From a virus: DNA of 64,000 nt. Position numbers and translations under genes: made by a program. This document shows, piece after piece, positions 44,426-49,574 of the stretch. Location of the stretch: IMG/VR virus record IMGVR_UViG_3300045971_000577, positions 1 through 64,000 of that record; one strand, 5' to 3'. Each line of letters starts with the position of its first letter. The stretch's first letter is position 1. The notes under the pieces were generated by a model. It had not been told where the DNA came from, ran no database searches, and was given only the letters and a program-made list of their open reading frames with translations.

Positions 44426-44611
44426 TTATTTCGGTCTATGGGCGTTATCCCATTCTTTGCGAGTCCATCCATTCATAAACAACTGCTCACGCCAGGTAGT
44501 TCGGTTTGGATCAACTAGGCCCATGTGTCGCCGGAAGAGTGTTTCCATCTCTTCCAATGATTTCCTCGTAAGACGGCGAAAGGTGTCATCTTCCGTATGA
44601 AAGGTGTTCAT
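44426..44611 (-). CDS. TEDDT-start protein, 61 aa
   Basis: MNTFHTEDDTFRRLTRKSLE; same N-terminal motif as 45114-45317 and 31878-32411, then 'WREQLFMNGWTRKEW' matching 'ERRQLFNSNGWGMQEF'. ATGA overlap with the bL12-like gene. Confidence 0.8.
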   Translation of the reverse strand: MNTFHTEDDTFRRLTRKSLEEMETLFRRHMGLVDPNRTTWREQLFMNGWTRKEWDNAHRPK

Positions 44612-44952
44612 GGCAGCCTACGAAGTTTCTCCGCGAGTACCAGTTGAAGAATTTCGTTAGCGAAATCGTCCTCGCCTTGCAGCAGCGCCTGCGCTCCGAT
44701 CTTGCGAAGTTCTTCAATCAGCCGGTGAACAGGTTCGCCGACATCGACCTTCTCACTACGAAGGATACGGCATTGTTCGTCAAACACCGTGTCCGTACAC
44801 GGTTGTAGATCGAACGTTTGCGGGACGCCCGCGATCTCGGATGCGTCCTTGGCTTCCTTAAGGCCTAACCCTGTGAGCATGCGGATAGCTTTGATGACCG
44901 AGACCTTGTTGTAATAGATCAAGGGACAGGTAAAGGTGATTTTCTTATTCAT
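44608..44952 (-). CDS. bL12 C-terminal-domain-like protein, 114 aa
   Basis: Residues about 13-37, KVSVIKAIRMLTGLGLKEAK, closely follow the ribosomal bL12 C-terminal fold motif (VIK.VR..TGLGLKEAK). The remainder is unrelated and helical. bL12's C-terminal domain recruits translation factors, so a phage copy could compete for them. The -10-like TACAAT is six bases before ATG, without a -35. Confidence 0.75.
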   Translation of the reverse strand: MNKKITFTCPLIYYNKVSVIKAIRMLTGLGLKEAKDASEIAGVPQTFDLQPCTDTVFDEQCRILRSEKVDVGEPVHRLIEELRKIGAQALLQGEDDFANEILQLVLAEKLRRLP

Positions 44953-44976
44953 GCGTGTATTGTATATGATTTAGTT

Positions 44977-45025
44977 GACAGTCGCGAGCGGTAGTGATCT
45001 TTTGTCCGACATACCCTCCACTGTC
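44977..45025 (-). ncRNA. GYG-loop hairpin element, isolated copy
   Basis: GACAGT/ACTGTC outer helix, internal loop G opposite GCG, then GAG/CTC helix. Same plan as the array at 47713-48600. Lies just upstream of the bL12-like gene. Confidence 0.55.
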
Positions 45026-45113
45026 ATTGGTTTGGTTTTTACGGGTTATAGGATGCTTTCGCAGACGCCCTTTTGCCTCGCCCCAATGGAACTAGCTGCC
45101 GACCTTCCCAACT

Positions 45114-45317
45114 TTAATCGTGTGGTAACTTTATATTTCGTGCCCTGCTGGATTCAATAAACTCCTGCATGCCCCATCCATTACTATTGAATAGCTGGCG
45201 TCTTTCGTCTGTACTCCATGAATAAGGATGCTGATCCCTCATCCACTGCCTGTATATCTCCTTCATCTCTGTGACAGATGGTCGCGATAGGGCTCGGAAG
45301 GTGTCGTCTTCGGTCAT
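45114..45317 (-). CDS. TEDDT-start protein, 67 aa
   Basis: MTEDDTFRALSRPSVTEMKE; paralogue of 44426-44611. Stop is followed by noncoding DNA. Unknown. Confidence 0.8.
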   Translation of the reverse strand: MTEDDTFRALSRPSVTEMKEIYRQWMRDQHPYSWSTDERRQLFNSNGWGMQEFIESSRARNIKLPHD

Positions 45318-45820: not shown

Positions 45821-45955
45821 TGGTGCCCGGAGGGGGACTCGAATGGTGCGAGCAGAGGGATTCGAACCCTCAATCCTTGCGGCGGGGGATTTTAAGTCCC
45901 CAATGTATCCCAGTTCCATCATGCTCGCATTATCTACCAATTCCATCATCCGGGC
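45821..45955 (-). tRNA. outer shell of a tRNA-Leu-like gene containing another tRNA
   Basis: 5' GCCCGGATGATGGAATTGG and 3' TCGAGTCCCCCTCCGGGCA form a perfect 7-bp acceptor (GCCCGGA/TCCGGGC), D-arm start and 3' half of a T-arm, ending CCA. Everything between, including the 5' T-stem, is replaced by the complete tRNA at 45844-45928. Probably not functional as a whole. Confidence 0.6.
45844..45928 (-). tRNA. tRNA-Leu(UAA)
   Basis: Acceptor GCGAGCA/TGCTCGC, anticodon arm GGGGA-CTTAAAA-TCCCC (anticodon UAA), long variable arm, T-arm GAGGG-TTCGAAT-CCCTC, encoded CCA. D-arm is weak (ATG/CAT). Nested in the shell at 45821-45955. Confidence 0.8.
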
Positions 45956-47107: not shown

Positions 47108-47668
47108 TTATAGTCTTGCGACAACTTTGTCAACAGGCTTATAGAACTTGTGATTGCCTATTTCCACAGTGTGCGTGAACATCTTTGCCCAGCGTGGAGT
47201 CCTATAACCCTTTATCTTCATCACCTTAGGTGCAAGATAGCTGATGCTGCCCTTGGTCGGATCAGTGATAACTTTTTCCAGCACCAGTCGCGCAACCTGA
47301 AGCGACTGTTGCCAGCTTGCTTTATCGATCTCGTTCCGTTGAGCTGGTTCCAGATGTAAGCTCGTAGCCGCCGCCTTTAGTGCAACGTTGCCATTGAAGG
47401 CACTGTATTGCATAGGCGCAAGCACCTGCTTACATACCGTGGATTTAGGCGAATTTAGCGCCCTATTGACCGCTGTGTGTGCAACAGCGGCCATGCCCTC
47501 TATTGTCTCCCCTCTGCTTTCTCCGTACACCATAACCGCCAGACATTTGACTTGGGCAGGTTCTGCAACGATAGGTTCTTCAAAGGGTAGATCACGAATG
47601 CACGCCATCTGTGCAGCATTGTGAATGGATGTAGGGACTAAGGCAAGAGCCAGAAGTATGTATCGCAT
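47108..47668 (-). CDS. SleB-like cell-wall hydrolase, 186 aa
   Basis: Signal/anchor MRYILLALALVPTSIHNAAQ, then CLAVMVYGESRGETIEGMAA and 'NRALNSPKSTVCKQVL' plus 'PMQYSAFN', the Hydrolase_2 (SleB-type) core with its catalytic Glu in YGESRG. Family members cut peptidoglycan glycan strands. With an export signal it may serve as a lysis enzyme; no holin was recognised nearby. ATG is six bases after -10, so it may be leaderless. Confidence 0.85.
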   Translation of the reverse strand: MRYILLALALVPTSIHNAAQMACIRDLPFEEPIVAEPAQVKCLAVMVYGESRGETIEGMAAVAHTAVNRALNSPKSTVCKQVLAPMQYSAFNGNVALKAAATSLHLEPAQRNEIDKASWQQSLQVARLVLEKVITDPTKGSISYLAPKVMKIKGYRTPRWAKMFTHTVEIGNHKFYKPVDKVVARL

Positions 47669-47674
47669 AAGAGT

Positions 47675-47703
47675 ATTATGCAACACAAGATATAAACAGT
47701 CAA
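47675..47703 (-). promoter_or_regulatory. promoter of leaderless type
   Basis: -35 TTGACT, 17 nt, -10 CATAAT, six bases before the hydrolase ATG. Confidence 0.8.
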
Positions 47704-47712
47704 CAGATAAAT

Positions 47713-48600
47713 GATAGTCGCGGAGCAGGGCCCTATAGTTTTGCCGGCCGGTCTAGTTACACAGGATAATCCCACTATCAGTAAATGGTTCTGAGTTTCC
47801 CCTCACACTCACCTTTTGACAATCACGATGAGTAGCGAGCGCCCCGACTGAACAGGCAGATATATTCATCCATAGTCATTCTATAGCTTGGATGACTATA
47901 GAAATATTTCCAAAGACTGGAGGTAGGTGCTGGCTGTCGCAGGCGTACATTAGTTCAAGCATGACTAAGACGCATACTTTCGAGCCTTCGGAAAATAGTT
48001 GGTAGTCACGGATAGCGGGACGTCTCAAGTGTAGACGAAAGCATATACCACTACCAGTATAAAATGATTATCAGTCCACTACTCTGAGTTCACATATTTA
48101 CACCTTCAACATAGCTGGCAGTCGCGATTAGAGAATAGATTAGTGCGTTAGTTCCGCCATTCATCAAATGATACTTCCACTGCCTGTACTGTTCCTTCGT
48201 ATTCTCATACAAGGGAACAGCACCAGTTGGCTACAAGAAGAATACGTCGCCTTTCGGTCGACTGGCTCCACCTCGCATAACTATTGTGGTAAGCATTCTT
48301 GTAACAAATAGTCGATGGTCGCGACGGAAGTGATCAATACCCCTGCCTGCAGACAGTTTGATATCAATATACCATCCACTATCCGTCCTCAGATCATTCC
48401 TCGGACCTTATCAAAAATGGTAATCACGGAGTAGAGAATCACTCAACGGGACAGGCTCCACCGGTCAGACCGGACTGCCGTCTGCAATCATGCTCCTATT
48501 ACCTGTGCTTGGAGAAGGCACCTTACTGCATTGACAGTCACGAATACAGTATACGGTTGGTGCCTTTCGACCATCTCCGACCGCAATGTATTCCACTATC
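47713..48600 (-). ncRNA. array of GYG-loop hairpin RNAs
   Basis: No coding frame. At least six units share one plan: outer 6-bp helix ending AGU/ACU, then G opposite G(C/U)G, then an inner helix. Units: 47713-47779 (GATAGT/ACTATC), 48001-48055 (GGTAGT/ACTACC), 48117-48184 (GGCAGT/ACTGCC), 48314-48383 (GATGGT/ACTATC), 48419-48503 (GGTAAT/ATTACC with GGAG/CTCC), 48533-48600 (GACAGT/ACTATC with GAATAC/GTATTC). Two weaker candidates at 47818 and 47932. Helix bases change but pair. Strand inferred from neighbours. Confidence 0.6.
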
Positions 48601-48702
48601 TGTACGGGTTCGTCACTCCGCACCTTTTTCCTAATGAACTGTTCAACCGCATACCAGCGTGAGATACCTTTCGGTAGAGCGCTGGAATAGCCTGTTCCTC
48701 GG

Positions 48703-48918
48703 CTAACGATTAGAAACTTTATTTCTTACTGGTTCCTCGGCAACTATATACCAATCAGGCGGTGGCCACGCCGTATTGTGTTTGTTGTTATAGTCGACAT
48801 GAAACTTATCTGCCTCTTCGAATGTGTCGAAGTAAAAGCTTTCATCAACCTTGCTACCCCATCCGCGCTCGGATTCGATCATGTCAACGCGCCAGGGTTT
48901 AGTATCATCTTTGTTCAT
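48703..48918 (-). CDS. hypothetical protein, 71 aa
   Basis: MNKDDTKPWRVDMIESERGW; ends WYIVAEEPVRNKVSNR. Last coding gene before the hairpin array. Unknown. Confidence 0.8.
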   Translation of the reverse strand: MNKDDTKPWRVDMIESERGWGSKVDESFYFDTFEEADKFHVDYNNKHNTAWPPPDWYIVAEEPVRNKVSNR

Positions 48919-49498: not shown

Positions 49499-49574
49499 TG
49501 GTAGACCCTGAAGGAGTCGAACCTTCGCCTGACGGTTATGAGCCGACTGCTATTACCACATTAGCTTAGGGTCC
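49499..49574 (-). tRNA. tRNA-Met (CAU)
   Basis: Acceptor GGACCCT/AGGGTCT (G-U at the tip), D-arm GCTA/TAGC, anticodon loop CTCATAA, T-arm GAAGG-TTCGACT-CCTTC, encoded CCA. One mismatch in the anticodon stem. Could also be tRNA-Ile if the C is modified to lysidine. Confidence 0.88.

Follow-up and report, generated by a model that had tools for sequence, protein, structure and literature searches.

What is specified by a region of about 1 kb that separates the end of a 71-aa open reading frame (ORF; 48703) from the start of an endolysin-like gene (47668) in a jumbo phage? The window analyzed here is 64 kb out of a 369,145-bp record. The large terminase encoded by that record shares 62.6% identity with its counterpart in jumbo phages of the Pseudomonas PA5oct-like group (Arenbergviridae), in keeping with the phage context that the original prediction had presumed in speaking of infected cells. 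That prediction described about 0.9 kb without a coding frame, and no ORF of at least 80 aa was found from the endolysin gene to about 48700. Genes at ~44 to 51 kb of the window lie on the minus strand, together with tRNA-Arg, tRNA-Met, and tRNA-Leu. A tRNA search placed tRNA-Met(CAT) upstream of the array (49499..49574, minus) and tRNA-Leu(TAA) between the endolysin gene and a solo unit (45844..45928, minus), in a conserved order. The endolysin-like gene, a cell wall hydrolase (47108..47668, minus; ATG at 47668), was assigned with PF07486 (E 3e-12), PHROG (endolysin), and alignment A2. Just past the last unit, a sigma70-like promoter for this gene was identified by sequence pattern (TTGACT-17-CATAAT; 47675..47703, minus), and a pattern search found a similar element in 17/21 related loci, usually shortly after the last unit.

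R1, a covariance model built on 22 sequences of the second hairpin, matched seven array units within 47710 to 48601 and one solo unit at 44974 to 45026, all on the minus strand, with array scores from 43 bits (best) to 21 bits (weakest) and a spacing of 97 to 199 nt. The predicted hairpin units and the lone copy at 44977 to 45025 were thus recovered, by both the covariance model and a core pattern, with the count of at least six units becoming seven plus the solo and the expected repeat of 100 to 140 bases giving way to the measured spacing. Each module consists of two adjacent hairpins exactly 1 nt apart, AAG-(P1: GU...AC)-N-(P2: GRYARU)-pair-(P3), and the minus-strand consensus common to units is GRYARU-R-G....C-GYG-AYURYC. 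The earlier plan was incomplete, lacking both P1, the first hairpin, and the junction of constant 1-nt length; its asymmetric loop of G facing GCG or GUG is a real site, not a loop, and holds an R-Y pair with a bulged G on either side, close to where the second hairpin begins to pair (47 units: GC 32, AU 9, GU 6, unpaired 0; Fisher p 2e-6).

A P1 of at least 4 bp after AAG occurred at a spacing of 1 between hairpins in 33/46 units, compared with 1, 1, 2, 3, and 1 units at spacings 0, 2, 3, 4, and 5, and the junction nucleotide was A in 27, U in 12, G in 4, and C in 3. P1 was GU/AC in 36/36 resolved units, and its inner pairs vary freely (GUGCGG/CCGUAC, GUCC/GGAC, and GUUAUACUCC/GGAGUAUAAC). 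Second hairpins were 39 to 99 nt long, with loops variable in length and sequence and a conserved core, and rare P2 forms stay paired (GCCGGU/ACCGGC in L071; GGCACU/AGUGCC in L282). U-rich linkers such as AACUUUUA lie between units, and short U runs often follow them. RNAalifold, run on nine solo units, found the same two-hairpin plan unaided, and a model built from solo units alone (R2) matched array units in G000, G003, G005, G009, G012, and G013 (weakest in G000; E 0.018).

The window array (all features minus strand) starts with a leader domain (CUAAUCG...AUUAG; 48631..48713), assigned by sequence comparison, which is conserved in L021, L058, and L211, with related forms in L200 and L210. 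Unit 1 (48533..48626; R1 match 48530 to 48601, 38.5 bits) reads AAG-P1(GUGCGG/CCGUAC)-A-P2(GAUAGU/ACUGUC)-P3. Unit 2 (48419..48524; R1 match 48416 to 48504, 21.3 bits) has P1(GUGC/GCAC)-A-P2(GGUAAU/AUUACC), and its bulged Gs enclose A-U in place of G-C. Unit 3 (48314..48409; R1 match 48311 to 48384, 34.7 bits) has P1(GUCC/GGAC)-G-P2(GAUAGU/ACCAUC), with one A-C mismatch in P2. Unit 4 (48117..48226; R1 match 48114 to 48185, 36 bits) has a 10-bp P1 (GUGCUGUUCC/GGAACAGUAC)-A-P2(GGCAGU/ACUGCC), unit 5 (48001..48106; R1 match 47998 to 48056, 43.3 bits) has P1(GUGUAAA/UUUAUAC)-U-P2(GGUAGU/ACUACC), unit 6 (47818..47877; R1 match 47815 to 47878, 38.6 bits) is a P2/P3 hairpin from which a canonical P1 is absent, and unit 7 (47713..47815; R1 match 47710 to 47780, 34.4 bits) has P1(GUGAGUG/CAUUUAC)-U-P2(GAUAGU/ACUAUC). 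The solo unit (44974..45115; R1 42.1 bits; alignment A3) has a long conserved P1 domain (GGGCGUCUGC..GCAUCCUAUAACCCGUAARAACCAAA) and scored 131 bits with R2, a self-match in that the window solo was among the R2 input. The domain inside the solo P1 is long and highly conserved, and much reduced in L282.

Two side observations concern the array itself. An inserted element E (AAGAAUGCUYACCAC..GUGGAGCC..GAAA..CUUCUU; 48230..48304, minus), found by sequence comparison, is conserved, RNA-like (AAGAAUGCUNACCAC..GUGGAGCCAA..GCUGUAAACUUCUU), and apparently a three-way junction; it lies among the window units and had no Rfam match. It recurs in L013, L025, L066, L075, L205, and L211, where it stands after tRNA-Met and before the units. 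In unit 5 and its L021 ortholog (L021 unit 3), both apical loops are kept (CAGAGUAGUGGACUG and GUCUACACUUGAGAC), and these loops could, from their letters, form a 4-nt kissing contact (AGUG/CACU).

The RNA strand is the minus strand, as shown by gene and tRNA direction, by the pattern matches, by the stronger fold of the ~1-kb region (minimum free energy, −328 kcal/mol on the minus strand versus −288 on the plus strand), and by the excess of G-U over A-C at paired positions (27 G-U versus only 10 A-C cells). Folding energy by itself is weak evidence: per-unit values on the minus strand ranged from z −3.5 to +0.6, unremarkable for several units, so that the comparative data carry the case. Across 47 distinct units, 92.3% of the second hairpin was paired; double-change cells numbered 111, whereas shuffles gave 36 ± 5 (0/500), and the signal collapsed once pairing partners were slid; alignment A4 was fitted to R1 and hence leans towards P2 and P3, and the R-Y pair is absent from R1, so that its GC, AU, and GU counts are evidence not built in by the model. 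This covariation lends strong support to the earlier claim of one structural rule with helices that stay paired. Sites that satisfied a strict rule (P2 of 6 bp, bulged Gs around an R-Y pair, and P3) occurred 4 times in 1029 nt of minus strand, compared with a mean of 0.064 and a maximum of 2 in 1,000 dinucleotide shuffles, so shuffled sequence does not give equally many such hairpins. The core pattern gave five matches in the 369-kb record, all minus and all at the array or solo site (reversed-control pattern, 0 matches in 369 kb), and the covariance search that had been suggested matched the array and the solo and nowhere else credible in that record.

Relatives were collected by pattern scans and by alignment of the neighboring endolysin, which found none as a single-sequence query and did find them as an alignment query. 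Viral contigs with an endolysin at least 54% identical had an R1 match near the endolysin gene in 23/23 cases; those in L200-L202 and L213 were weak by score (16 to 17 bits), and the L213 match gains support from a P1 of 12 bp that immediately follows tRNA-Met. Among 57 contigs with remote endolysins, no R1 match exceeded 15.2 bits. Most loci show the order tRNA-Arg(TCT), tRNA-Met(CAT), array, endolysin, tRNA-Leu(TAA), solo, although individual contigs lack some of the tRNAs or had them undetected, and array size runs from one unit (L214, L199, and L210) to seven (window). Ten records, including those of 369 kb and 210 kb, held by R1 one array and usually one solo each; other R1 matches in the same ten records had E values of 0.02 or worse and were chance-like. 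A match at G000:336786 (14.6 bits, E 0.18) was treated as chance. In these 23 other phage contigs the letters change and the fold stays, so that the RNA family is real and, judged from the sequences compared, new and uncatalogued (literature scope, open-licence papers, in which silence is not proof of novelty).

The family was found in uncultivated metagenomic phages of one broad lineage, in which some contigs hardly differ from one another (L200-L202). Distant versions would escape both exact-pattern scans and a search anchored on the endolysin, and viral records may be fragments. Searches of Rfam, isolated phages, plasmids, and species genomes returned no relatives: Rfam 15 had no entry matching the array in the window or its relatives, and neither the solo unit searched in annotated phages and plasmids nor the solo pattern searched in species genomes gave a match. 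Matches to a looser solo-domain pattern were mostly due to chance and were rejected by R1, and a broad P1-P2 pattern scan gave no lineage beyond those already known. A further ~1.1 Mb of viral DNA, largely preselected for look-alike patterns, gave a maximum R1 score of 24.7 bits outside known members. Isolates related by terminase (PA5oct, Paride, Callisto, Phosso, and SNUABM_19) had no credible R1 match, the 12-bit match in PA5oct being rejected as lying inside a coding sequence.

Several further features of these loci were recorded. A small protein with a partial match to the ribosomal L7/L12 C-terminal domain (PF00542, E 1e-8; window 44608-44952, minus) is encoded directly downstream of the solo RNA and has homologs in L211, L028, and L212. 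A family of small paralogous ORFs starting M(T/Q)(E/Q)(E/D)DTFR.L.R occurs in the window (45114-45317 and about 44500-44620, both minus), at L021:500-900, and at about 1497 in L282, often in tandem and in several genomes immediately 3' of the solo RNA; the window copy had no Pfam match. Group I introns (RF00028) were found at L017:1549-1759 (minus) and L211:5504-5737 (plus), the former splitting a tRNA-like gene just upstream of the array, and in L072 and L075 the tRNA-like gene upstream of the array is seemingly split by an inserted ORF.

Position argues against control of one neighboring gene. The gap between array and endolysin holds ORFs in L207, L212, and L213, and solo copies precede unrelated genes, with a convergent gene next in L028/L029; neither array nor solo thus leads one particular gene. 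A cis role of the solo for a particular downstream gene is unlikely in view of L028/L029, and a cis leader (riboswitch) of the endolysin gene was rejected on the intervening ORFs and on the promoter-like site between RNA and gene, which leaves room for read-through transcripts from the array into the endolysin; a cis role of the array is also conceivable. Two of the functions originally suggested also fell away. A tRNA-like nature found no support, the units having no tRNA or tmRNA match (ARAGORN and Rfam), no T-arm, and no CCA end, and neither did packaging sites, since the elements lie by the tRNA and endolysin genes, with the large terminase gene some 150 kb away. The remaining suggestion, protein-binding sites or decoys, is the candidate reading that we also prefer. 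Repeated RNA modules that titrate a protein occur in ToxI-type antitoxin repeats and in CsrB/RsmZ sponge RNAs, from which the array differs in repeat length, fold, and motif; its core GG is base-paired in a helix rather than set in an ANGGA loop, on which ground CsrA-type loops were rejected, and no toxin gene was seen adjacent to the array. The arm order of the array units presumably does not fit a type I-F CRISPR repeat. Phage noncoding RNA decoys that mimic CRISPR repeats as solitary units are described as Racrs (RNA anti-CRISPRs; PMC10651486).

By shape, the main rival and the best structural analogue is an HK022 put-type nascent-RNA antiterminator, whose units would fold on RNA polymerase and cause read-through of terminators past the untranslated tRNA region. 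An untranslated tRNA operon is Rho-sensitive, which counts for this reading. putRNA has two stem-loops in a V shape, binds via its stem fork, and has a single junction nucleotide and AA before stem I; every substitution made at the junction G35 abolishes anti-pausing (PMC9378689). The units share with it the single-nucleotide junction (at that same spacing in 33/46), the AA before stem I, an irregular base of stem II, the phage setting, and two separate loci per genome that recall putL and putR. The stem II irregularity differs, being two bulged Gs around one pair in the units, which unlike put stand in tandem arrays placed after tRNA genes. Membership was rejected on the junction, which is mostly A or U and not the required G, and on the start of the units, AAG-GU without the AGACG/CGUCU arrangement (triplex strand), the put 5' AGACG strand being absent; putL was located in HK022 sequence for comparison, and R1 had no match in the HK022 stretches searched. 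With the elements placed at operon 3' ends, a convergent gene following the L028/L029 solo, and seven tandem copies left unexplained, we consider a put-type function unlikely.

A large RNA-only assembly, in which the modules would build an ornate multimerizing RNA, is suggested by GOLLD and ROOL, structured phage RNAs that lie beside tRNA genes, one GOLLD (env-38) downstream of tRNA-Met (PMC12286853). The array is likewise about 1 kb, multidomain, and near phage tRNA genes (tRNA-Arg and tRNA-Met upstream and tRNA-Leu downstream in most loci), and the possible loop-loop match kept in window unit 5 and its L021 counterpart would suit such contacts. Unlike these RNAs, it is a small tandem module whose number varies from 1 to 7, which does not suggest a fixed-size particle, and no sequence or structure match links them, membership being rejected because Rfam gave no GOLLD or ROOL match in the window region, whether at gathering threshold or with E relaxed to 5, and none in relatives; this makes such an assembly quite improbable. 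Like T4 rnaC/rnaD, the array units close a phage tRNA cluster at its 3' end as tandem, presumably stable RNAs, yet rnaC ends in a T-arm-like hairpin, a fold unlike the module, and membership was rejected (no R1 match; folds differ). Every unit combines a constant core with variable loops, and the linkers are U-rich, as might be expected of an array of base-pairing small RNAs whose scaffold served as a stability or chaperone handle and whose apical loops guided it to different mRNAs; the loops, however, are mostly internally structured, differ greatly in length, and are kept in one orthologous pair and not in most, and we hold this to be very unlikely. There is similarly little chance that the units are operon-end elements, lying before the next gene's promoter, that serve the upstream transcript as a stabilizing 3' cap or as a terminator: the last unit usually lies shortly before the sigma70-like promoter and short U runs often follow units, against which stand the lack of a terminator-like site on the minus strand here, the presence of only two loci in 369 kb, and the stringent two-G, 1-nt-junction constraint, which a terminator does not need.

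We tentatively favor, short of even confidence, a decoy or scaffold: from its sequence and setting, the array may be a stable RNA that is cut out of the tRNA operon transcript and acts in trans, each of its modules repeating a binding site for a single partner. It would be cotranscribed with the upstream tRNA/small-ORF operon, and the transcript would be trimmed to one long or several short stable RNAs acting in trans; we infer transcription, processing, and trans action from position. At its junction, every module would expose an identical surface, V- or L-shaped and with two Gs flipped out, that a single partner could bind; candidates are RNA polymerase, the ribosome, and a protein of host or phage origin. 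The array would then be a multivalent decoy or scaffold with a strength that scales with unit number, and the solo copy might add an extra domain for a dedicated role. Constraint in the junction and the two bulged Gs, with variable loops, suits a surface for binding better than a loop for base pairing. A search for mimicry of rRNA, RNase P, or 6S RNA gave nothing significant (best over mature rRNA, 5S; 6.7 bits, E 1.1) and yielded no partner. It is doubtful, if conceivable, that the array is a new phage RNA device, a multivalent double-hairpin array with paired bulged Gs that would act in trans to capture one of the host's machines (RNA polymerase, ribosome, or RNase), its strength tuned by module copy number.

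The large structured RNAs that phages carry next to tRNA genes (GOLLD, ROOL, and T4 rnaC/rnaD) have long been a puzzle. In the family described here the module is small and well defined, its covariation signature is sharp, and nature supplies a series of copy numbers from one to seven, so that the partner and the role of copy number are testable with short synthetic RNAs, and the constraint in the junction and two bulged Gs directs such experiments to one surface.
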